A stretch of 64,000 nucleotides of DNA, taken from positions 62,001-126,000 of the forward strand of contig NZ_LQBK01000009.1 of the NCBI RefSeq assembly GCF_001483755.1, in the 5' to 3' direction. This document shows, piece after piece, positions 4,993 through 17,496 of the stretch (the stretch's first letter is position 1; each line of letters begins with the position of its first letter). Below the pieces are notes generated by a model. The model was not told where the DNA came from and ran no database searches. It was given only the letters and a program-made list of their open reading frames with translations. The position numbers and the translations under genes were made by a program. This DNA comes from Kocuria rosea subsp. polaris. GTDB taxonomy: Bacteria; Actinomycetota; Actinomycetes; Actinomycetales; Micrococcaceae.

Positions 4993-5101
4993 TGGGGGGC
5001 GGGACCGGGCCGGCACGTCGGCCGCGACCGACGGACCCGCCCCGCAGCGCCCGCTCGACGACCCCGAGCGCACCCGAGAACCATCCCGGAGGAATGACAG
5101 C

Positions 5102-6523
5102 ATGGAGCAGTTGCGCCTGGCAGGTGTGCACGACGACGGTGAGCACCTGGTCGTCGAGGACGAGGCAGGCACCCGCCACCTGTTGCGGATCGACCAGGAG
5201 CTGCGCCTGGCCGTCCAGCGCGCCCGGCGCCTGCCCGGCGCCCGCCAGCGCGGCACGGGCCAGTTCGGGCCCCGCGAGATCCAGGCCCGCTTCCGCGCCG
5301 GGGCCACGGTCGAGGAGATCGTGGCCGAGAGCGGCTGGGAGTCCGCGCGCGTCCGCCGCTACGAGTGGCCGATCCTCGCCGAGCGGGCCCACGTCGCGGC
5401 CGAGGCGCAGAAGGTCCAGATCGAGGACCGCTCCGCCCACCGCGGCTACCACTCCGTCTTCGAGGGCGAGCCCCTCACCCTCGGCCGTGCCGTCGCCCAC
5501 CGGGCCGCCGACCTCGGCGTGGACCCCTCCTCCCTCGAGTGGGACTCGTGGCAGCGGGAGGACCACCTGTGGGCGGTGGTCGCCCGGTTCTCGGTGGTGG
5601 ATCCCTCGGCCGCCCCCGCCCACGACGAGCCGCTGGCCGAGTGGCTGTACAACCCCGCGAACCAGAGCGTGCGGCCGGCGAACCCGTGGGCGGAGTCCCT
5701 CACCGAGCCCGGCCCCCCGGACACGCCCCTCGGCACGGGGCTCGGCGTCCTGGACGGCGGCCTCGACCCCGAGCTCACGCAGCTGCGCCGCTCGGCCGTG
5801 GAGGCCGACGACCTGCTCGACGTGCTGCAGGCCCGCCGCGGGCAGCGCATCGGCGAGGACGCCGACGGGGACGACGCCCTCGCCGAGATCCTGGGCCGTG
5901 GCATGGGCCACGTGGAGCGGCGGCCGCGCCCGCTCGCCGCCCCCGAGGACAGCTCCGTCTTCGACCGGCCCTTCCAGCCCGCCACGCAGTTCCCCGAGCC
6001 CGACGCCGCCCCGGAGCCCGCCCCGGGCCGGGCCGGGGCGCCCGCCGGCGGCCCGGACGCGCAATGGGCGGAGGATGCCACCGGCGCGCCGGCCGAGCCC
6101 GCCGAGGAGCCCCCCGCCCGGAACGGCGCGCCCGCGAGCTCCCCGGAGCGGGCGCGGCAGCCCGGGCCGGAGCGCACCGGGCGCGACGACGGGGCCGCGC
6201 CCGCCGCGGACTCCTCCGGCGCCGAGGCATCCGGGACGGGGACCTCCGAGACCGGGACGCCCGGCACCGGGACGCCCGCAACCGTGACGCCCCGGTCCGG
6301 GGCCGACGGAACCGGGACGTCCCCGTCCGAGGACCCGCCGGGCGAGGACCCCGCCGACAGCACCGCTCCGGCCGCGCGAGAGGGCGCCGAGGACTCCACC
6401 GCCGAGGAGGAGTCCGCACCGGAACGGCCCCGTCCGCGCAACAAGACGGCGAAGGCCCGGCGCTCCGCGCGGTCCTCGGTGCCCAGCTGGGACGAGATCG
6501 TCTTCGGCAGCTCCTCCGACTGA
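5102..6523 (+). CDS. sepH: Septation protein SepH (DUF3071)
   Basis: 473 residues. SepH is an FtsZ-binding division protein of actinobacteria that promotes Z-ring assembly. The conserved DUF3071 N-terminus spans about residues 1-160, including a helix-turn-helix-like stretch (FGPREIQARFRAGATVEEIV). A long Pro/Ala/Gly/Thr-rich disordered linker follows, containing GTGTSETGTPGTGTPATVT repeats. The protein ends in the family's short C-terminal signature SVPSWDEIVFG. The start is the ATG after a GGAGG site. The partners FtsZ, SepF and DivIVA are encoded about 50 kb away in this window. Confidence 0.93.
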   Translation: MEQLRLAGVHDDGEHLVVEDEAGTRHLLRIDQELRLAVQRARRLPGARQRGTGQFGPREIQARFRAGATVEEIVAESGWESARVRRYEWPILAERAHVAAEAQKVQIEDRSAHRGYHSVFEGEPLTLGRAVAHRAADLGVDPSSLEWDSWQREDHLWAVVARFSVVDPSAAPAHDEPLAEWLYNPANQSVRPANPWAESLTEPGPPDTPLGTGLGVLDGGLDPELTQLRRSAVEADDLLDVLQARRGQRIGEDADGDDALAEILGRGMGHVERRPRPLAAPEDSSVFDRPFQPATQFPEPDAAPEPAPGRAGAPAGGPDAQWAEDATGAPAEPAEEPPARNGAPASSPERARQPGPERTGRDDGAAPAADSSGAEASGTGTSETGTPGTGTPATVTPRSGADGTGTSPSEDPPGEDPADSTAPAAREGAEDSTAEEESAPERPRPRNKTAKARRSARSSVPSWDEIVFGSSSD

Positions 6524-6673: not shown

Positions 6674-7435
6674 ATGGGCAATTCCATCGAGGACGATCTC
6701 TTCGGGGACGACGAGCGCGACGCCGCCACCGCGGAGGCCGCCACCCCCGGCGCCTCCGCCGCGCCGGCGGGACCGGCCGAGCTCGTCCAGGGCTCCGGAC
6801 CGGGCCGGTTCGTCGCCGGGCTGGTCCTGGGCGCGGTCGTGCTCGTGGTGCTCGCCGGCGTCGGGGCGCTCTACCTGGGCGGAGTGGGGCGCAGTCTCTT
6901 CGGCAGCGGTCAGCAGGCGGAGTTCATCCCCGCCCCCTCGATGACCACGTCACCGTCGGCCACCGCCTCGCCGACGCCCACCCGCACCCGCACGCCCTCC
7001 CCCACACCCTCCCCGACGCCGAGCCCCTCGCCCGAGGCCCCCGCCCCGCCGCCGCCCGCCCCGGAGCCGGTGCCGCCGGCCCCCGTGGTCCCCGCGCCGG
7101 CGCCCGTGCCTCCCGCCCCGGTCGCGCCCGAGCCGGTCGTCCCCGCGCCCGTCCCGCCGCAGCCGGTGGTGCCCGCCCCGGCACCCGCTCCGCCCGCTCC
7201 CCCCGCGCCGCAGCCGGCCCCGCCCGAGCCCGGACCCGCGTCGCCCGGGACGCCCGCGGAGGACGAGGAAGGCCCGGCCGAGGAAGGCCAGGCCGAAGAG
7301 GGTCCGGACGAGGAGGGCCCCGTCGAGGAGGAGCTCGCCGAACCCGCCGCCGCCGGGGAGGAATCCGCCGAGGGGGGATCCGCCGAGGACGGAACTGCCG
7401 ACGAGGCCGGCGGGGAGACCCCGGCGGTGCCGTGA
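6674..7435 (+). CDS. Hypothetical single-pass membrane protein with Pro-rich and acidic repeats
   Basis: 253 residues, family not recognised. Layout: an acidic/Ala N-terminus that is probably cytosolic (1-50), one membrane helix (about 52-74, VAGLVLGAVVLVVLAGVGAL), then an outside region of Thr/Ser/Pro (TPTRTRTPSPTPSPTPSPSP), a Pro/Ala/Val low-complexity spacer and a tail of EEGP-type acidic repeats. Such compositions suit wall-spanning stalks, but no folded domain is visible. In mycobacteria the comparable slot next to DUF4193 holds a cell-envelope protein, so an envelope role is a weak inference. Its 3' end merges into a 26-bp tandem repeat. Confidence 0.75.
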   Translation: MGNSIEDDLFGDDERDAATAEAATPGASAAPAGPAELVQGSGPGRFVAGLVLGAVVLVVLAGVGALYLGGVGRSLFGSGQQAEFIPAPSMTTSPSATASPTPTRTRTPSPTPSPTPSPSPEAPAPPPPAPEPVPPAPVVPAPAPVPPAPVAPEPVVPAPVPPQPVVPAPAPAPPAPPAPQPAPPEPGPASPGTPAEDEEGPAEEGQAEEGPDEEGPVEEELAEPAAAGEESAEGGSAEDGTADEAGGETPAVP

Positions 7436-7523: not shown

Positions 7524-8699
7524 TCAGGCGAGGCGCAGCAGCGGGACCTCCCGCTCGGCGCGGGTGAGCGAACCGTGCTGACCCACCATGGACAGGACGC
7601 TGGGCCGGAGCCGGCCCAGGTCGAACAGTGCGATCGGGTCCCGGGCCAGCACCAGGAGGTCGCCGATCCGCCCGCGCACCGCGTCGCGCACGAGCTCCGG
7701 CGGCCCGAAGTAGCCGGCCTCGAGAGCGGCCTCCCGGGAGAGCAGCCACACCCGGGAGCCGAACTGCCCGCGCCAGGCGGCCACGAGCGCCCTGACGTCC
7801 CCGGCCGTGGCGTCCTGCTCCAGGTGCAGCTGCACCGTCCGCGGCTCCCCCGCCGTGTGCCGGACGCCGTCCAGCAGACCCGGAAGCCCGGAGAAGTCGA
7901 CGCGGGCGTCCCGGGGGACGTCCACCATGCCGTGGTCACCGGTCACCAGCACGGTGGTGCCGGCCGGGACCCGGGCGACCAGCCGGCGCAGGGCCGCGTC
8001 GAGCTCCTCGAGCTGGGCCGTCCACTCCCAGGACTCCCAGCCCCGCGCGTGCCCGGTGCGGTCGAGCTCGTCCCAGTAGAAGTACATGAGGGCGTCCCGG
8101 CCCGCGGCGAGCTGGTCGAGCGCGGTGCTGACGCGCGCCGCCGGTCCCTCCGCGGCGACGAACCGGCTTCCGCGCAGGGCGGCCTCGGTGAGCCCGGAGC
8201 CGGCGAACTTGCCCCGGCTGACCGTGATCACGTCGAGGTGCTCGGCGGCGCGCTCGAACACCGTGGGCAGCGGCTGCCACGTGCGCGGGTCCACGGCGGC
8301 GTCCCAGCCCCCGAGCTGGTTCACGACCCGGTCCCGGGCGGGGTCCAGCACGTCGTAGCCCACCAGGCCGTGCGCTCCGGGGGCGGCGCCGGTGCCGAGG
8401 GACGCCAGTGAGGCCGCCGTCGTCGTGGGGAACGCGGCGTCCAGGGTGGCCAGGCTCCGGGCCCCGGCCAGGACGGGGGCGTGCCCGGCGCGGGCCCGCA
8501 GCTGCGCACGCCCCAGCCCGTCCACCATGACGACGACGACCCGGCGGGCGGCGGGCAGGCCCAGCACGTCCCGGAAGCCGGGCACGCCCAGGGACGCCGC
8601 GGCCGAGGACATGACCTCCGCGACCGATCGGCTGCCGTAGCGGGGCGGGCCCGGCAGGTCGGCGGGCAGCGCGGGGAGGACTTCCTGCACCGCCCTCAT
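7524..8699 (-). CDS. Alkaline phosphatase superfamily (nucleotide pyrophosphatase/phosphodiesterase-like) protein
   Basis: 391 residues. Metal-binding signatures of the type I phosphodiesterase/NPP family are in order: VVVMVDGLGRAQL near residue 50 (first metal Asp), FPTTTAASLASLGTG (nucleophile Thr), then TGDHGMVDVP (Asp-His metal ligands). It probably hydrolyses a phosphoester or nucleotide diphosphate; the substrate is unknown. No signal peptide or membrane helix is seen, so it is likely cytosolic. Its ATG overlaps the DUF5998 stop by four bases (ATGA), making it the last gene of the GNAT-ACD > kinase > DUF5998 > phosphatase operon. Confidence 0.85.
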   Translation of the reverse strand: MRAVQEVLPALPADLPGPPRYGSRSVAEVMSSAAASLGVPGFRDVLGLPAARRVVVVMVDGLGRAQLRARAGHAPVLAGARSLATLDAAFPTTTAASLASLGTGAAPGAHGLVGYDVLDPARDRVVNQLGGWDAAVDPRTWQPLPTVFERAAEHLDVITVSRGKFAGSGLTEAALRGSRFVAAEGPAARVSTALDQLAAGRDALMYFYWDELDRTGHARGWESWEWTAQLEELDAALRRLVARVPAGTTVLVTGDHGMVDVPRDARVDFSGLPGLLDGVRHTAGEPRTVQLHLEQDATAGDVRALVAAWRGQFGSRVWLLSREAALEAGYFGPPELVRDAVRGRIGDLLVLARDPIALFDLGRLRPSVLSMVGQHGSLTRAEREVPLLRLA

Positions 8700-9415
8700 C
8701 GGGCGGCGCCGCCGTCCCGGCCGGTGAACCGGTCGGTGAACCGGGTGCGCGGGGTGGCCGCGGCCGTCCGCCGCGGGGCGGGCGTGCGGCCGTGAACCGG
8801 CTGGGCGATCTGCGCGCCGTCGGTCAGGGGGGAGAGGTTGGCCCGGCGCAGCGTGCGCGCGAACTCCCGCGCCCCCTCGACGGCGGCCGGGCCGTCGGCC
8901 TCCGCGCTGATCCGCAGCACGATGTCCTCGCGGGCCGCGGTGCCGGTGTAGCCGTGGTCGGCCTGGCACTGGGGGTCCTCGCACAGCGCGGGCGCCAGGT
9001 CCACGTGCAGGGTGCCCGTCCACGCGATGGCGAGCGTCACCTCGGAGATGGGGCTGTCCGGCCGGTAGTTGGCCGGCTGGTAGTAGGAGTAGCTGAGCGT
9101 CACGGAGCGGATCTGCGAGATCCCCACCGTCTCGGTGGAGACGCGGGCCACCACGTCCCGGCCGCTCTCGTCGAACTCCTCGTCGTCCACGTGCGTCACG
9201 TGGAGCACGTCCTCGGCGAGCACCAGCACGGTGGTGTGGCGGTGCACCTCCGTCCGGTCGATGTGGGTCTCCAGCTGCACGAGGTGGGACACCGGGGACC
9301 GGCCGTCCAAGGAGTCCTGGACCACGTCGATCACCAGCTGCGGATAGAAGCCGGCCTTGTTGATGTCCTCGACCAGCCGCTGGCCGCGCTCACCTGAATA
9401 CGTCATGGAGGACAT
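8696..9415 (-). CDS. DUF5998 family protein
   Basis: 239 residues, conserved actinobacterial family of unknown function. The first 190 residues look like a compact alpha/beta domain (GQRLVEDINKAGFYPQLVID; SYSYYQPANYRP) and hold CEDPQCQADHG, a CxxxxC-H cluster that could bind a metal. The C-terminal 40 residues are basic and Pro/Thr-rich, probably disordered. The first ATG is preferred because GGGGGAAA precedes it; an internal ATG three codons later is the alternative. The gene sits 37 bp after the kinase and overlaps the phosphatase by four bases. Confidence 0.8.
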   Translation of the reverse strand: MSSMTYSGERGQRLVEDINKAGFYPQLVIDVVQDSLDGRSPVSHLVQLETHIDRTEVHRHTTVLVLAEDVLHVTHVDDEEFDESGRDVVARVSTETVGISQIRSVTLSYSYYQPANYRPDSPISEVTLAIAWTGTLHVDLAPALCEDPQCQADHGYTGTAAREDIVLRISAEADGPAAVEGAREFARTLRRANLSPLTDGAQIAQPVHGRTPAPRRTAAATPRTRFTDRFTGRDGGAAR

Positions 9416-9452
9416 TTTCCCCCACGCGCGCGCCCGCGCCCAACACGGGCCC

Positions 9453-11099
9453 TCAGGGCACGCGGAAGTAGCAGCGCTCCTCCCCGCCGCCCTGGTCCTC
9501 GCAGACCCGTTCCAGCACCACGGGGGTCTCCTCCGGCGCCGGGCCGGGGGGTGTCGGCGCGCTGCGGGTGGCCGTGGGCGTCGGACCGGGAGCGGGGACC
9601 TGCTCCGCGGAGCCCAGCGGGTCGAGCAGCAGGTAGCCGCTCAGCAGCGCCGTCATTCCCACCAGGACCACGAACACGCCCCGCACGGCGCTGCCGCGGC
9701 GCCGGCGCCCGGTCCGCGCCGTCGGGGTGAACGTCCCCGTCCGCCGTCCCGCGGCCGGCCGGTGGCCCGCGCCGTCCCGGCCCGGAACCGGGACGGGTGC
9801 TCCGGCGCCGGCGGGCCCCGGCGTGCCCCGCCCGGGCCCGGACCCGCCGTCCCCGGGCCCCGTGTCGCCCGGACCGGTCGCTCCCGGGTCCCCGGGCCTG
9901 CCGCCGTTCGCCCCGGTGCTGCTCGGCCCGCTGTCGCCCTCGCCGGCGTCGTTGCTCCCGGAGCCGGCCGCCGCGGGGCCGTCCTTCCCGGCGCCGGCAC
10001 TCCCCGCGCCGGCACTCCCGGCGCCGGCATGCCCGGTGCCGCCGCTCCCGGTGCCGGCCGCCCAGGTCCCCGAGGCCCCGGCACCGGCGCCACCGGTGTC
10101 CACCGTGTCGGGTCCGTCCGGGAACGGGTCGCCGGTGCGCTCCCCCCGTGTTCCGCCCGCTCCGGAGCCGGGCCCCGCACCGGCCGGGTCCGCCGTGCGC
10201 TCCGGGGCGTCCGTGCCGTCCCATCCGGTCAGCACCCGGCTCGCCCACGGCTCGGGCAGGGGGTCGAGGACGTCGAAGACCTCGAACGGCTCCCCGTCCC
10301 GCGTGCGGGCCGGGTCGAAGCGCCGCCGTGCCGCGCCCGCGGTGAGCTCGTGCAGCACGGCCACGGCCGCGTCCCGGCGCAGCGCGGGGTCCGGGGTGAG
10401 CAGCGCCGCGAGGTGCTCGGCGAGGTCGCCCTGCTCCCCCACCACCGCCCGCGCGTCGTTGGGCCCGAGGCTCTCCTGGGGCTCCAGCGAGGGGTCCAGC
10501 ATCCGCAGCGCGGTGATCCCCGCGGCGTAGAGGTCCTGCGCGGGGCTCGGGTCGGTGAGCGCGTAGGCCTCCGGGGGCAGGTAGCCGGGGGTGCCCACCA
10601 CCGTGCCCGTCCGGGTCAGCCGGGCGTCCTGGACACGCACGGCGATGCCGAAGTCGGAGAGTAAGACGTGGGGCCGGCTGGTCCCGGTGCTGTCCAGCAT
10701 GAGGTTGCCCGGCTTCACGTCCCGGTGCACCCAGCCCTGGGCGTGCACGAACTGCAGCGCCTGGAGCAGCTGGGCCAGGACCTCCTCCGTCAGCTCCGCC
10801 GAGGCCGCCCCGTTGTCCAGCAGCGCGGACTCCAGGGTCCCCCCGTGGACGAGCGGCATCGCGATGACCACGTGCGCGTCCTCCGCGGCCCAGCCGTACG
10901 GGGCGAGCACGTGCGGGTGCTCCAGCTTCACCGACTGCTCCCGCGCGAAGCGCAGCAGGTCCGCGGAGTCGCGCTGGCGCAGCACCTTGGCCGCGCACAG
11001 CTGCTGGAGCCGGCCGTCCCAGGCCCGCCACACGGACCCGCTGCCGCCGCGGGCGATGGGGTCGATGAGGGTGTACCGACCGGCTATGGTGTCCGCCAC
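9453..11099 (-). CDS. Transmembrane Ser/Thr protein kinase (PknB-like kinase domain, no PASTA repeats)
   Basis: 548 residues. An active-type kinase domain covers residues 9-270: Gly-rich loop ARGGSGSVW (16-24), ATP-anchoring Lys38 in AAKVL, catalytic loop HRDVKPGN (125-132) and DFG (149-151). A long Gly/Ala/Thr/Pro low-complexity linker with near-repeated GAGSAGAG units follows, then one membrane helix (about 474-492) and a short outer tail with two cysteines (VCEDQ and RCYFRV) that could form a disulfide. PASTA domains are absent, so it does not look like the muropeptide-sensing PknB. The start is GTG, 15 bp after the GNAT-ACD gene. Cotranscription with a protein-acetyltransferase-like gene is notable. 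Confidence 0.9.
   Translation of the reverse strand: MADTIAGRYTLIDPIARGGSGSVWRAWDGRLQQLCAAKVLRQRDSADLLRFAREQSVKLEHPHVLAPYGWAAEDAHVVIAMPLVHGGTLESALLDNGAASAELTEEVLAQLLQALQFVHAQGWVHRDVKPGNLMLDSTGTSRPHVLLSDFGIAVRVQDARLTRTGTVVGTPGYLPPEAYALTDPSPAQDLYAAGITALRMLDPSLEPQESLGPNDARAVVGEQGDLAEHLAALLTPDPALRRDAAVAVLHELTAGAARRRFDPARTRDGEPFEVFDVLDPLPEPWASRVLTGWDGTDAPERTADPAGAGPGSGAGGTRGERTGDPFPDGPDTVDTGGAGAGASGTWAAGTGSGGTGHAGAGSAGAGSAGAGKDGPAAAGSGSNDAGEGDSGPSSTGANGGRPGDPGATGPGDTGPGDGGSGPGRGTPGPAGAGAPVPVPGRDGAGHRPAAGRRTGTFTPTARTGRRRRGSAVRGVFVVLVGMTALLSGYLLLDPLGSAEQVPAPGPTPTATRSAPTPPGPAPEETPVVLERVCEDQGGGEERCYFRVP
9987..10053. repeat. 15-bp GC-rich coding repeat in the kinase linker
   Basis: Copies of a CCGGCGCCGGCACTC-like 15-mer stand in tandem and encode the GAGSA units of the linker on the minus strand. 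They keep frame, so the linker length can vary without disrupting the protein. Confidence 0.6.
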
Positions 11100-11114
11100 G
11101 AGGTCCGGGCCCGC

Positions 11115-13811
11115 CTAGCTGCGCATGGCCCGGCGCGCGCTGTCCGTCCGCTGCCGGGCGTTGCCGATCCCGACCGAGGCCCCGAGCACGGTCAGGGAGC
11201 CGCTGGAGACGAGCACCGGGTTCAGCTCCACGCGGGCGATCTCCGGGTGCCGGTCCTTGAGCAGCGCCACCCGGGAGACCAGGTCCTCCAGCCGGTCCAC
11301 GTCCGCGGCCGGGACCCCCTGGTGGCCGAACAGCTTGCGGGAGGCCTTGGGCTCCCGGACCATCCGCCGCACGTCCTGGTCGGTCAGCGGCGGGACCCGG
11401 TGGGCCCAGTCCTCGAGGAGGTTCACCGCGTCCCCCGCCATCCCGAACGAGAGCACGGGGCCGATGAGCGGGTCCTCGATGGCCCGGAGCACCACGGCCT
11501 GGCCGGTGGGCGCCATGGACTGCACCTCGAGGTCGAAGGTGCCGAAGGGGGCGAGCGCGCGGTGCATGGTCTCGATGGCCGTGCGCAGCTGCGCGTCGTC
11601 CTGGATGTTGAGCTGCACGCCGCCCAGGTCGAGGCGGTGCCGGAGGTTGGGGTCCGTGGTCTTCAGGGCCACCGGGTAGCCGAGCCGCTCGGCGGCGGCC
11701 GGCGCGTCCGCAGGATCCGTGAACCGCTCGCTGGGCAGCAGGCCGATGCCGTAGGTCGCCAGCAGCGTCCTCGCCTGGTCGGCGTCCAGCTCGAGCAGCT
11801 CGTCGCCGGAGACCCGGGGCAGCACCGTCTCCACGAAGGTCTCGGCCGCCTCCGCGTCGATGCCCTTCGGCTCGGCGTGCCGGCCCTGGTCCTGGGCGCG
11901 CCACCGGGTGTAGTCCACCACCTTGGCGAGCGCGCGCAGGGCCGCGCCCGGGGAGTCGAAGCAGGGCACGTCCAGGCCGTCGTCGGCGTGGTGCAGGGCG
12001 GAGACCGCGCCGGGCTCGGTGCTGCCCGTGAAGACGACCACCACGGTCTTGCCGTGCTCGCGCCCCACGCGGCCCACGAGCTCGGCGACCTCCTCCGGCG
12101 TGGTGTCCGGGACCGGCATCAGCGTGACCACGGCGGTGTCGACGCCCTCGGCGCCGAGGCAGCTGTCGACGGCCGCCCGCAGCTGCCCGAGGGCCTCCCG
12201 TCCGCCGTCCGTGGTCCGGACGCCCGCCTGGGTCACCGCGACCTCCAGCCCCAGCTGCATGCACCGGTCCTCCATGAGCTGGCCCAGGGCCAGTGCGTTG
12301 GAGACGAGGGCCGTGCGGCCGCCCGCGGGCAGGGGCTGGCCGGCGAGGATCCCGGCCACGTCCATCAGGTGCTCGCTCGTGTCCGCGCGGATCACCCCGG
12401 CCTGGCGGAACATCGCGTCCAGGGCCCCGGGCGGCGCCTGCGTGGTGCGCCCGGTGTGGCCGGGCGGCAGCCGCAGCCCGGTGACCTCGCTCTTGGCCAC
12501 GATCACGGGCTTGTTCAGGGACAGCCGGCGCGCGATGCGGGAGAACTTGCGGGGGTTGCCCACGGACTGCAGGTAGAGCCCGCACGCGCGGGTCGCGGCG
12601 TCGTCCTCCCAGTACTGCATCATGTCGTTGCCGGAGACGTCGGCGCGGTTGCCGGCGGAGAGGTACGTGGACACCCCCACGTTGTGGCGCAGCGCGGCGG
12701 CGTTGAGCATCATGCCGATGGCGCCCGACTGGCTGAACAGCCCCAGGGGGCCCTCGCGCGGCACCGCCGGCAGGATCGAGGCGTTGAAGCGGGACTCCGG
12801 GGCCGTGCTGTAAAGCCCGAGGCTCGCGGGGCCGACCACGCGCATCCCGTGCGAGCGGGCACGGCGGACGAGCTCGGTCTGCCGGGCCCGGCCCGCCGCG
12901 CCCGCCTCGGCGTAGCCGCCCGTGACGACGACGACGGCGCGCACGCCCGCCGCGCCGCACTGGTCCACGACGTCGGCCACCAGGTCCACGGGCACGGCGA
13001 CCACGGCGAGGTCCACGCGCTCGGGGACCTCGCCGATCGAGGTGGCGTGGGTCATGCCCTCCCGCTCGAACGGGGTGGGGCTCACGCCGCTGAGCCGGCC
13101 GGCGAACCCGGAGGCGACGAGGTGCTCGACCAGCGCGTGCCCGGCGTGGCCGGGGTCCCGCGACGCCCCGATCACGGCGATGGAGGACGGGGAGAGGAGG
13201 TCGGCCATGGACAGGGCCTCGGCCCGGTGCTCCCGCGCGGCCATCACGGCCAGCGACTTCTCGGTCGGGTCGATGTCGAAGCCCACCACCACCACGCCGT
13301 CGTCGAACTTGCGGGTGAGCTCGTAGCCGGCCTCGGCGAACACGCGCAGCATCTTGCGGTTCTCGGGCAGCACCTCGGCGGAGAAGTGGTCGATCCCGTT
13401 CTCCCGCGCCGCGGCGGCGAGGTGCTCGAGCAGGATCGAGCCGATCCCCCGCCCCTGATGGGCGTCGGAGATCATGAACGCGACCTCGGCGTCCTGCGGG
13501 TCGTCCGTGCGGTCGTAGCGGCCGACCCCGATGATCTGCTCGCCCAGCAAAAGCACGAAGCACACGCGGTCCCGGTGATCCACCCGGGTGAACCGGTCCA
13601 GCTCGCGGGCGGAGAGCGTGGGCTTGTAGGAGAAGAAGCGCAGGTAGATGGAGTTCTCGGACTGCGACCGGTGGAAGGCCAGGAGCGCGTCCCGGTCCTG
13701 CGGGGAGATGGGGCGCAGCTGCGCCGTGGCGCCGTCGCGCAGGATCACGTCGGCCTCCCAGTACTCGGGGTACTGTCCGGCTTCGTCCGTGTCCGCGGTC
13801 TCTGGAACCAT
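11115..13811 (-). CDS. GNAT acetyltransferase fused to ADP-forming acyl-CoA synthetase (Pat-like, GNAT at N-terminus)
   Basis: 898 residues. A GNAT domain occupies about residues 18-180, with acetyl-CoA loop QGRGIG at 119-124. A CoA-binding Rossmann domain starts near 205 (SSIAVIGAS). A succinyl-CoA-ligase-like domain follows, with [20 protein letters not shown] and GHTG, in which His452 aligns with the family's phospho-His. The C-terminal 240 residues form an ATP-grasp domain ending near VELNPVLVS. Relatives act as protein lysine acetyltransferases or acetate-CoA ligases. Enterobacterial Pat carries GNAT at the C-terminus, the reverse of this order. The chosen ATG has a promoter 7 nt upstream, which implies a leaderless mRNA. 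First gene of the four-gene operon. Confidence 0.88.
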
Positions 13812-13818
13812 AGACTTC

Positions 13819-13846
13819 AGGCTAGTAGACAAACCCGCACCGTCAA
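13819..13846 (-). promoter_or_regulatory. Leaderless promoter of the GNAT-ACD operon
   Basis: Minus strand: -35 TTGACG (13841-13846), 16-nt spacer, -10 TAGCCT (13819-13824), then 7 nt to the ATG. The expected start of transcription falls at or beside the start codon, and no Shine-Dalgarno is present. Confidence 0.7.
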
Positions 13847-13938
13847 CGGTGCCTCCCGGTGCGTCCCCCGACGTTCTGCAACGCCGAGCGGCGGGGGCCA
13901 CACCGGACCGACCCACGACCGAAGGACCCCCCGCTGTG

Positions 13939-16440
13939 ATGGCTCGCCGCCGTGCGCCCTCCCGTCCGTCCGCCGAGGACGAGCTGCCCGCCGACTTCCG
14001 GGAGAACATCGTCGACATCGACGTGACCTCCGAGATGGAGACGAGCTTCCTCGAGTACTCGTACTCCGTCATCTACTCCCGCGCCCTGCCCGACGCCCGG
14101 GACGGGCTCAAGCCCGTGCAGCGCCGCATCCTGTTCATGATGAACCAGATGGGGCTGCGCCCCGACCGCGGTCACGTCAAGAGCGCGCGCGTCGTCGGCG
14201 AGGTGATGGGCAAGCTGCACCCGCACGGCGACTCCGCGATCTACGACGCGATGGTCCGCCTCGCCCAGTCCTTCGCGATGCGCCTGCCGCTCGTGGACGG
14301 GCACGGCAACTTCGGCTCCCTCGACGACGGCCCCGCGGCCTCCCGCTACACCGAGGCCCGGATGGCCCCGGCCGCCCTGGCGCTCACGGCCGACCTCGAC
14401 GAGGACGTCGTCGACTTCGTGCCCAACTACGACAACCAGTTCACCCAGCCGGGCGTGCTGCCCGCGGCGTTCCCGAACCTGCTGGTCAACGGCTCCTCCG
14501 GGATCGCGGTGGGAATGGCCACGAACATGGCCCCGCACAACCTGCGGGAGGTCGTCGCGGGCGCCCGCCACCTCGTGGAGCACCCCGAGGCCACGCTCGA
14601 GGAGCTCATGCGCTTCGTCCCCGGCCCGGACCTGCCCTCGGGCGGGCGGATCGTGGGCCTCGACGGGATCCGGGACGCCTACCGCACCGGGCGCGGCTCG
14701 TTCAAGACCCGCGCGAAGGTCTCGATCGAGCAGGTCTCCCCGCGCAAGCAGGGCATCGTCGTCACCCAGCTGCCCTACATGGTGGGGCCCGAGAAGGTCA
14801 CCGAGAAGATCAAGGAGGCGGCGCAGGCGAAGAAGCTCCAGGGCGTCTCCGACGTCGTGGACCTGACCGACCGCAAGAACGGCATGCGCCTCGTCATCGA
14901 GGTCAAGAACGGCTTCAACCCGCAGGCGGTCCTGCAGCAGCTGTACAAGTACACGCCCATGGAGGACTCCTTCGGGATCAACAACGTGGCGCTCGTGGAC
15001 GGACGGCCCCGCACCATGGGCCTGCTCGAGCTGCTGCGGGTGTACGTGGAGCACCGGCTGTCGGTGGTCCGGCGGCGCACCGGGTTCCGCCTGGGCAGGC
15101 GGCGCGACCGGCTGCACCTGGTCGAGGGCCTGCTCGTGGCCATCGTCGACATCGACGAGGTCATCCAGATCATCCGCTCGTCCGACGAGACGGCCGTGGC
15201 CCGGGAACGGCTCATGGCCGTCTACGACCTCAGCCGCGTGCAGGCCGACCACATCCTCGAGCTGCGCCTGCGCCAGCTGACCAAGTACTCGCGGATCGAG
15301 CTCGAGAAGGAGCAGGAGGAGCTGCGCCGGGAGATCGCCGAGCTAGAGGAGACCCTCGCCTCCGACGCCCGGCTGCGGGCCCTGGTCTCGGCGGAGCTCG
15401 CGGAGATCGCCGAGGTCCACGGCGACGACCGGCGCACCGAGCTGCTCGAGTCGGAGGCGCTGCCGGCGCCGGCCGCCGCGGCGGCGGCCCCCGCCCCGGG
15501 GAAGGCCCCGGGGGGCGGGCTCTCCCTCGAGATCGCCGACGACCCGTGCTGGGTCTTCCTGTCCACCTCGGGCCAGCTCGCCCGGACCCCCTCCCAGGTG
15601 CCGCTGGTGGATCCGCCGCGGCGGATCAAGCACGACGCCCTGGTCTCGGCGGTGCGGGCCACCGCCCGCGGGGAGATCGGCGCGGTCACGTCGACCGGTC
15701 GCATGCTGCGCGTCCAGGTGATGGACGTGCCCGTGCTGACCGCCTTCGAGGGCACCCCCAAGCTGGGCGACGGGGTCCCGGTCAAGGATTTCCTCACCCT
15801 CGGCCGCGGGGAGCGGCTCGTGGGGCTCGCGCCGCTCAACGCCGTGCTGGCCCTGGGCACCCGCAACGGTGTGGTCAAGCGCGTCAGCCCGGAGTACCCC
15901 CTCAACCGGGAGGACTGGGAGGTCATCACCCTCAAGGACGGCGACGAGGTGGTCGGTCTCGCCGAGTCCGCCGCCGCCGAGGACGAGCTGGTGTTCGTGA
16001 CCCGGGACGGCAAGCTGCTGCACTTCGAGGCCGGCGCCGTGCGGCCCCAGGGACGCACCGCCGGCGGCGTCGCGGGGATCAAGCTGGTCCCGGGGGACGC
16101 CGTGGCGTTCTTCGGGGCCGTGCGCGATGAGGACGAGACGCCCGTGGTCGTGACCCTCGCCCGGGCGGACGAGGTGCTGCCCGGCATGTCGCAGTACTCG
16201 GTGAAGGTCACCCCGTTCTCGGAGTACCCGCCCAAGGGCCGGGCCACCGGCGGCGTGCGCGCGCACCGCTTCCTCAAGGGGGAGACCGGGCTGGCGCTGG
16301 CCTGGGTCGGGCACGGTCCGGCCAAGGCCGTCTCGGCCTCGGGCGTGGCCCGGGCCCTGCCCACCGAGCACGGACGCCGGGACGGCTCGGGCGTGCCCAC
16401 CGACCAGGTGATCGACGCCGTGGGCCCCGCCTACGGCTGA
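13939..16440 (+). CDS. parC: DNA topoisomerase IV subunit A
   Basis: 833 residues, breakage-reunion subunit of a type IIA topoisomerase that decatenates daughter chromosomes. The catalytic Tyr137 lies in SRYTEAR. The quinolone-determining segment [12 protein letters not shown] is wild type at its key Ser99 and Asp103. A coiled coil with [17 protein letters not shown] precedes the C-terminal beta-pinwheel. No GyrA-box of the QRRGGKG type is visible, and parE lies close by, so ParC is favoured over GyrA. Start ATG; a GTG sits one codon earlier. It is divergent from the GNAT-ACD gene and converges on mdh with a 3-bp gap. Confidence 0.9.
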
Positions 16441-16443
16441 GCC

Positions 16444-17496
16444 TCAGCGGCGGGGGCCGAGCAGCCCCATCTGCGTCACGGCCGCGCGCTCCTCCTCGAG
16501 CTCCCGGACGGAGCGGTCGATGCGGGAGCGCGAGAACCCGTCGAGCTCGAGGTCCGGGACTATGCCGGCGCGCCCGTCCCGGCAGACGACCGGGAAGGAG
16601 CTGACGAGCCCCTCCGGCACGCCGTAGGACCCGTCGGAGGCCACGGCCATGGACGTCCACCCGCCCTCGGCGGTCCCCAGGACCCAGTCGCGGACGTGGC
16701 ACAGGGCCGCGTGCGCCGCCGAGGCCACCGAGGAGCCGCCGCGCACGTCGATGATCTCGGCGCCGCGGCGGGCGACCCGGGGGATGAAGGTGCTGTCCAC
16801 CCAGTCCAGGTCCAGGCCCTTCTCCGCGAGCGCCTCGAGCGCCGGCCGGCCCCCGACCGTGGCGTGGGTCAGGTCGGGGTACTGGCTCGCGGAGTGGTTG
16901 CCCCACACGGCCACGCCCTCGATCTCGTCGACGCGCGCCCCGGTGGCCGCGGCCAGCTGCGCGAGCGCGCGGTGGTGGTCGAGCCGGGTCAGGGCGGTGA
17001 ACCGCTCCCGCGGGACGTCCGGGGCGTGCGAGGCGGCGATGTACGCGTTGGTGTTGGCGGGGTTGCCCACCACGACGGCCCGGAAGTCCTCGGCCGCACC
17101 CCGGTTGACGGCCCGCCCCTGGACCGAGAAGATCCCGGCGTTGGCCTCGAGCAGGTCCGCGCGCTCCATGCCCTGGGACCGGGGGCGGGCCCCGATCAGC
17201 AGCCCCACCGAGGCGCCGTCGAAGGCGGCGTCCGCGTCCTCGAAGACCTCCACGCCGTCGAGCAGGGGGAACGCCCCGTCCTGCAGCTCCAGGGCCGTGC
17301 CCTCCGCGGCCCGCCGCGCCTGCGGCAGCTCGAGCAGGTGCAGCCGGACCGGCGTGCCGGGCCCGAGGAGGTCGCCCGCCGCGGCCCGGAAGACGGTGGC
17401 GTAGCCGATCTGGCCCGCGGCGCCCGTCACGGTGACGGTGACCGGCCGGGGCCGGACGTTTGCGGTGGACGGGGTGTGCGGGCCGGTGGCGGTCAT
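16444..17496 (-). CDS. mdh: Malate dehydrogenase
   Basis: 350 residues, interconverts malate and oxaloacetate with NAD(H) in the TCA cycle. After a 17-residue Thr/Pro N-terminal extension comes the nucleotide-binding [12 protein letters not shown]. The substrate arginines lie in [15 protein letters not shown] and [21 protein letters not shown] is the family marker, and the catalytic His is in [12 protein letters not shown]. This is the LDH-like MDH of the GAAGQIGY type. A typical enzyme has about 330 residues, so the extra length is the N-terminus. It sits between parC and parE, an unexpected position, and has its own putative promoter. Confidence 0.95.

Follow-up and report, generated by a model that had tools for sequence, protein, structure and literature searches.

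The 64,000-nucleotide (nt) stretch of Kocuria rosea subsp. polaris DNA analysed here (contig NZ_LQBK01000009.1, positions 62,001 to 126,000; hereafter the window) carries four minus-strand genes encoding, in the order Pat, kinase, DUF5998 and NPP, a fusion of a GNAT acetyltransferase with an acyl-CoA synthetase, a membrane Ser/Thr kinase, a protein of the DUF5998 family, and a hydrolase of the type I phosphodiesterase/nucleotide pyrophosphatase (NPP) family. Comparison of this locus across genomes leads us to favour, at a probability of roughly 0.55, a reading in which a lineage-specific kinase was captured by an old Pat/DUF5998-NPP operon and would now be co-expressed with it. The kinase is a Kocuria-only insertion between Pat and DUF5998 within the sampled loci, while DUF5998 and NPP form the core pair of the block, with Pat as a frequent but dispensable third member.

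The kinase insertion in Kocuria

In a genus set of 27 Kocuria genomes, including the window's own, an operon-type kinase, defined as a match of at least 315 bits, was present in 25 genomes and adjoined DUF5998 in 24 of the 25 genomes that have DUF5998, the exception being G556, in which Pat, DUF5998, and NPP are present and the kinase is missing. In G561, which gave no DUF5998 match, the kinase lies beside Pat at a contig end, and in G555, which is 76% complete, neither DUF5998 nor the kinase was found. The kinase was also found in seven of eight other named Kocuria loci, with one locus starting at a contig end inside the kinase. A search for the kinase domain at a threshold of 40 bits found nothing in 53 loci from outside the genus (20 of other families, 33 of the same family) and nothing in 72 named loci lying outside the genus clade; all six Kocuria loci run as a positive control matched. 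With composition statistics applied, the kinase went undetected in three of the Kocuria loci (L138, L145, and L146), and the absence counts were made without such statistics. One of the 72 named loci, L167, bears the name Kocuria massiliensis; a tree of Pat sequences places it beside Rothia halotolerans and not in the clade that has the kinase. This tree requires two changes of kinase presence and nests G556 within kinase-bearing Kocuria (support 100/100), which is most simply read as one gain of the kinase, probably at the base of Kocuria, and one loss. Support for the operon kinases as a monophyletic group is weak (75/83; recovered in 72% of bootstrap trees), so we infer a single insertion chiefly from the Pat tree and from the common location of the gene.

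Read from sequence alone, the window protein had been described as an active-looking membrane kinase with Lys38, HRD, and DFG intact and no PASTA repeats. This description agrees with our analysis, in which Lys38, HRDVKPGN, and DFG are all present, PASTA repeats gave no Pfam match at E ≤ 0.001, and the model NF033483 covers the kinase domain only, at 142 bits versus a cut-off of 450. Hydropathy predicts one transmembrane segment near residues 474-492, followed by a short, predicted outside tail with two Cys residues. The catalytic Lys, HRD, and DFG are complete in all but two of 32 kinases compared, the exceptions being L132, which lacks the Lys and has its N terminus in another frame, and L152, which lacks DFG. 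The catalytic domain is under purifying selection, with a ratio of nonsynonymous to synonymous substitution rates (dN/dS) of 0.06-0.21 in six K. rosea-group comparisons; NG86 estimates at larger distances (L072, L073, L076, and L077) were left unused, as saturation likely distorts them.

Of the 113 genomes that represent other genera in the family sample, seven carry relatives of the operon kinase at other loci, with scores of 203-275 bits. All seven relatives lie beside a VWA-type gene; its VWA domain is matched in six loci, and in the seventh the contig begins within that protein. Genes for a PBP4-like protein and an inorganic pyrophosphatase lie nearby in six of the seven loci (Pfam annotation of these neighbourhoods covered members of L151, L156, and L157). 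Uncharacterised proteins of 553 and 167 amino acids (aa) lie beside the VWA-linked kinase at L156:8748-13880, and the kinase-VWA sets of L151-L157 are possibly a separate module. Actinobacterial Hanks-type kinases include PknA, PknB, and PknL. As a subfamily, the operon kinases and their VWA-linked relatives separate at 100/100 from ten sampled paralogues, of which two Kocuria genomes supplied six and other genera four. On this separation, although long branches meet there, we rejected the possibility that the kinase arose by recent duplication of one of the PknA/B-like kinases in its own genome. The idea that Kocuria kept the VWA partner was also rejected, as the L156 VWA protein gave no match in the window's genome in a search run without a positive control.

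The strongest rival to capture with a role in the operon treats the kinase as a working enzyme with no functional tie to its neighbours, a passenger that came to lie in the operon, is expressed from the operon promoter, and has its targets elsewhere. Unrelated genes occupy the same spot in two other genera: by eye, the translations of L088 at about 10000-16300 resemble the OleA-D olefin set, and an assortment of unrelated genes lies at about 9700-13100 of L086 (in reverse-complement orientation), so the position between Pat and DUF5998 tolerates insertion. The occurrence of the same kinase subfamily beside VWA-type genes in seven other-genus genomes, and its absence from G556 despite the presence of Pat, DUF5998, and NPP, fit the passenger explanation as well. 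What speaks against this explanation is that 24 of the 25 DUF5998-bearing Kocuria genomes keep the kinase between Pat and DUF5998 at short spacings, and we regard it as a realistic alternative that is nonetheless somewhat improbable.

Predicted promoters and transcript organisation

The four same-strand genes and their spacers (15 nt between Pat and the kinase, 37 nt between the kinase and DUF5998, and -4 nt between DUF5998 and NPP, where the beginning of NPP and the end of DUF5998 share 4 nt), as first read from the letters alone, were borne out by gene calls and the sequence. The clear leaderless promoter proposed upstream of Pat likewise lies at the position given for it, and its TAGCCT box ends 7 nt upstream of the Pat ATG. 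The motif TANNNT was scored 5-8 nt upstream of an in-frame Pat ATG and compared with the expectation from shuffled sequence. This revealed the motif in 24/24 Kocuria loci, window included, where the shuffles expect about 1.4, with 6/6 loci of the K. rosea clade, 17/17 other kinase-bearing loci, and the single kinase-less locus (1/1) contributing (shuffles 0.6, 0.8, and 0.0, respectively). It was also present in 29/29 loci from other genera of the same family (shuffles 2.0), in 64/67 named loci outside the genus (4.2), and in 8/12 loci from other families (0.3); with GTG Pat starts also allowed, the counts became 25/25, 29/30 (other-genus loci), and 11/15. The same count upstream of the divergent ParC gene gave 0 in every locus set. 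A strict sigma-70 scan does not report the Pat promoter at 13819-13846, and the TTGACG box is, by eye, confined to the K. rosea clade among the loci compared. Conservation of the motif across genera supports a predicted leaderless start for Pat. An inverted repeat, GCACCGTTGACGGTGC, at 13837-13852 overlaps the -35 element of this promoter as a possible operator; by eye it is visible in the K. rosea clade and not in other Kocuria loci.

Short spacing is a feature of the genus, with 3-18 nt between Pat and the kinase in 23/25 loci, 14-95 nt between the kinase and DUF5998 in 23/23 loci, and a 4-nt overlap of DUF5998 and NPP in 18 of the 24 loci measured. Scanning the window identified two terminator-like sites on the minus strand, one over the Pat promoter and one inside Pat (13567-13553), and none in the spacers between the four genes. 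Because of the short spacing, the conserved leaderless motif, and the lack of terminator-like sites in the spacers, the prediction that the four genes are one operon in Kocuria, read as a single transcript, is supported. To this extent, the sequence-only reading of the locus as one regulatory unit stands, while its extension to a general four-part system is not supported, with the kinase present in 0/53 and 0/72 examined loci outside the genus.

Upstream of DUF5998, [TG]ANNNT was found outside the genus in 23/31 other-genus, 58/69 named, and 7/18 other-family loci (expected 3.1, 7.2, and 1.5, respectively) and in 0/7 loci of the K. rosea clade. If the motif was lost in the K. rosea group, expression of DUF5998-NPP would depend on the Pat-kinase transcript, and the kinase insertion may have tied the pair to that transcript; we consider this suggestive only. 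Several observations weigh against it: the motif was widened from TANNNT after the data had been inspected, the strict form gives a mixed picture (only 11/31 other-genus and 6/69 named loci), the wider form is kept in 5/10 other kinase-bearing Kocuria loci, and it is missing from the kinase-less G556 as well (0/1).

The DUF5998-NPP pair and its association with Pat

DUF5998 was found in 120/120 genomes of a family sample, representing 31/31 genera, in 122/149 genomes of an order sample, and in 19/296 genomes of a phylum sample (the window and one marginal match included). Across the 149 genomes of the order sample, NPP was present in 147 and Pat in 100, with Pat absence scored at E 1e-60. By coordinates, DUF5998 and NPP are adjacent on the same strand, with NPP downstream, in 121 of the 122 order genomes with DUF5998, and the sole departure, G520, has DUF5998 at a contig edge. 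No genome had DUF5998 without NPP (0/122), while 23/122 had DUF5998 without a Pat match, and a single genome of about 700 contigs (G486) had Pat without DUF5998. Of the 99 genomes with both Pat and DUF5998, 77 have the two on one strand no more than 1 kb apart, 10 have them equally close on opposite strands, and 12, which include the window with its kinase insert, have them farther apart, split, or on another contig. Among the 72 named loci that fall outside the genus clade, 71 have a Pat-DUF5998 spacer of 54-256 nt, and the remaining locus has one of 795 nt. It is this constancy of the DUF5998-NPP adjacency, while Pat moves or vanishes, that identifies DUF5998-NPP as the core pair. The closest named relatives of the window DUF5998 are Kocuria records; three Micrococcaceae-like loci named Curtobacterium sp. 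S6 (L168, also placed in the Pat tree), Acidobacteria bacterium G2_11 (L195), and Sporosarcina beigongshangi (L216) are probably misnamed or contaminated.

The sequence of DUF5998 gave no useful match to solved structures (best E 0.18) and no Pfam PH-family match, with PF19461 as the only Pfam family at E ≤ 0.001. Across 27 diverse members G22, P25, H60, H75, E95, W132, and a few others are invariant, together with C145, D147, C150, D153, H154, and G155 (27/27) of the motif C145-x-D-P-x-C150-x-A-D153-H154-G, through which the protein may bind metal. An AlphaFold2 model built from 72 sequences, with a predicted local distance difference test (pLDDT) score of 78.6, begins with two helices, continues as a series of strands, and closes with a long C-terminal helix (176-198), with lower confidence in the Cys/His knuckle region (blocks of 75-81). 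A second structure aligner ranked bacterial PH domains first (3hsa, Z 8.7; 3b77, Z 8.6), many further matches are named PH or PTB, and others are presumably PH-like. Two points count against this assignment, in that Foldseek matches were weak (best E 0.02) and a Z of 8.7 barely exceeds the level that the aligner deems uninformative. Taken together, the model lends moderate support to a PH-like fold with an added Cys/His knuckle.

The NPP model has higher confidence (pLDDT 97.4; predicted template modelling score 0.94), and its Foldseek matches include ENPP6 (E 3e-19), Xac NPP (E 1e-17), and phosphonoacetate hydrolase. The putative two-metal residues D60, T93/T94, D213, H217, D255, H256, and H375, whose roles we take from the NPP family, are conserved in 98% or more of 155 aligned rows. 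Assignment to this family by PF01663, fold, and residues predicts a phosphodiesterase or pyrophosphatase, which is probably intracellular, as no hydrophobic or signal-like N terminus was found in the window protein.

Pat has a type II GNAT architecture, in which an Acetyltransf_1 domain is joined to CoA_binding_2, Succ_CoA_lig, and ATP-grasp_5 domains, and by sequence it matches 4nxy (E 6e-50) and 4u5y (E 3e-49), which we take to be the GNAT domain of Streptomyces lividans Pat. E109, presumably the catalytic Glu of the GNAT domain, is found in 150/150 aligned rows, and H452, which aligns with the SHTGA His of 8wzu that we take to be catalytic, is kept in 149/150 rows within an altered motif. 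Its family predicts Pat to be a protein lysine acetyltransferase, and the window's genome also encodes Acs (971 bits) and two sirtuin-family matches. Among known systems, Pat is closest to the type II GNAT protein acetyltransferase PatA of S. lividans (PMC4053389, PMC8556138), and the review among these sources describes the synthetase domain of type II GNAT proteins as lacking the catalytic His (PMC8556138). Retention of H452 would depart from that statement and would not by itself indicate synthetase activity.

An explanation that denies the block any joint function holds that an inherited gene order around parC and sepH is all that keeps Pat, DUF5998, and NPP side by side. The entire neighbourhood is indeed syntenic, Pat lies on the opposite strand in 10/99 genomes and farther away, split, or on another contig in 12/99, and promoter-like motifs separately precede DUF5998 in many genera. 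The persistence of DUF5998-NPP in 121/122 genomes while Pat moves or vanishes, and the 4-nt overlap of the two genes in 18/24 Kocuria loci, argue against this explanation, which we judge unlikely. We rejected a conserved four-gene system, as the kinase is absent from every one of the 53 and 72 loci examined outside Kocuria, and we consider it very improbable that the four genes act as a single regulatory unit that couples phosphorylation to acetyl-CoA or nucleotide status and uses DUF5998 as an adaptor to bridge the kinase and the enzymes: co-transcription is likely in Kocuria, Pat is of an acetyl-CoA-using class, and Acs could be a target and the sirtuin-family proteins antagonists, but DUF5998 occurs without the kinase in all 125 outside loci and without Pat in 23/122 genomes. 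The sequence-only reading had named DUF5998 genes lacking any of these neighbours as evidence against it, and such genes are what the neighbourhood comparison found. As all 122 genomes with DUF5998 also have NPP, the partner of DUF5998, if it is an adaptor at all, is most likely the NPP enzyme and not the kinase.

In the reading that we favour, capture of the kinase by an existing operon, an old actinobacterial block of Pat, DUF5998, and NPP, commonly placed between divergent parC and convergent sepH, would have had Pat read from its own conserved leaderless promoter and DUF5998 helping to regulate or assemble the intracellular NPP hydrolase. The gene for a membrane Ser/Thr kinase would then have entered between Pat and DUF5998 in the Kocuria ancestor, at spacings that would place it in the Pat transcript, and in the K. 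rosea group the lack of a separate motif upstream of DUF5998 hints that DUF5998-NPP came to depend on this transcript. The kinase domain, kept functional by selection, could thereby add a membrane-sensed phosphorylation input to the co-expressed genes. Several findings tell against parts of this scenario. The kinase tail evolves fast (dN/dS 0.31-0.89 in five K. rosea-group comparisons), its Cys pair occurs in two of three Kocuria clades and is absent in one, and the kinase frame is broken in two drafts, G553 (L132) and G543 (L150). Moreover, 25 order-sample genomes have NPP without a DUF5998 match, so NPP can exist without it, and the DUF5998-NPP adjacency may be ancestral synteny. The broken frames could reflect sequencing error or decay. 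A more ambitious proposal, which we think rather doubtful, is that DUF5998 is a metal-binding PH-fold subunit controlling an intracellular NPP-type hydrolase on a nucleotide- or CoA-like metabolite, and that Kocuria put this pair and Pat under a membrane kinase, creating a crosstalk operon of acetylation, phosphorylation, and metabolite breakdown.

Neighbouring genes and comparison with known systems

Coordinates of the operon, its promoter, and the flanking anchors are listed in Table 1. According to neighbourhood maps, the divergent ParC-like gene and convergent sepH flank most of the loci compared. Next to sepH, 6674-7435 encodes a protein rich in proline that matches no Pfam or NCBIfam family and, by eye, has a single hydrophobic stretch. 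A malate dehydrogenase gene lies at 16444-17496 between the ParC-like and ParE-like genes; of the three Kocuria clades, the K. rosea clade has such a gene near parC, a second has it there in several loci, and in the third it was not seen.

Table 1. Features of the locus in window coordinates
Feature	Position	Strand	Basis
NPP-family (type I phosphodiesterase/nucleotide pyrophosphatase) hydrolase, 391 aa	7524-8699	-	PF01663, E 1e-33
DUF5998 protein, 239 aa	8696-9415	-	PF19461; alignments; structure model and fold search
Membrane Ser/Thr kinase, GTG start, 548 aa	9453-11099	-	Pfam Pkinase; motifs; transmembrane segment by hydropathy
Pat (GNAT-synthetase fusion)	11115-13811	-	Pfam Acetyltransf_1, CoA_binding_2, Succ_CoA_lig, ATP-grasp_5
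Predicted leaderless promoter upstream of Pat	13819-13846	-	TTGACG 13846-13841 and TAGCCT 13824-13819
ParC-like topoisomerase subunit A, divergent neighbour outside the operon, syntenic anchor	13939-16440	+	PF00521, NF004044
SepH septation protein, convergent neighbour, syntenic anchor; start unrefined	5084-6523	+	NF040712, PF11268

In the literature text searched, DUF5998 was found in a single paper and there only as a list item, and SCO5855/DUF3071 appears only as a list entry in the searched part of PMC4255298. The text searched of a paper on SepH (PMC7968930) contains no mention of 'synten' or 'operon', and a title search gave none on this locus among the titles listed. As far as we found, the locus would thus be a lineage-specific variant, built from known families, of a conserved and apparently unnamed actinobacterial operon. 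Our analysis gives the unannotated DUF5998 family a predicted fold, a candidate metal motif, and a near-obligate partner enzyme, making its function directly testable. The kinase insertion argues against a general four-part system and points to a tight DUF5998-enzyme pair, while the natural pairs with and without the kinase (kinase-bearing Kocuria versus G556 and other genera) offer a way to ask whether kinase capture rewires acetylation and phosphorylation.

Each component resembles a known system and departs from it. The DUF5998 model may share with bacterial PH-like domains (3hsa, 3b77, and 3dcx) a strand sheet closed by a C-terminal helix, but it lacks a Pfam PH match and adds two N-terminal helices and a conserved Cys/His knuckle. 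The window hydrolase has the fold and the conserved putative two-metal residues of Xac NPP, ENPP6, and phosphonoacetate hydrolase, yet it has 14-21% identity to the listed structures, lacks a hydrophobic N terminus, and is paired with DUF5998. In its catalytic motifs, N-terminal kinase domain, and single predicted transmembrane segment, the window kinase is like the Hanks-type kinases of actinobacteria, whereas it lacks PASTA repeats, has a short, variable tail, and is separate from the sampled paralogues. VWA-linked Micrococcaceae kinases belong to the same subfamily as the Kocuria operon kinase but occupy another locus beside a VWA-type neighbour. Finally, the window Pat strongly matches the 4nxy and 4u5y structures and in this resembles S. 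lividans PatA; it differs in having neither GPS nor a collagen-like run, it may differ from type II GNAT proteins generally in keeping the aligned His (H452, 149/150 rows), and in Kocuria it is followed by a kinase gene.

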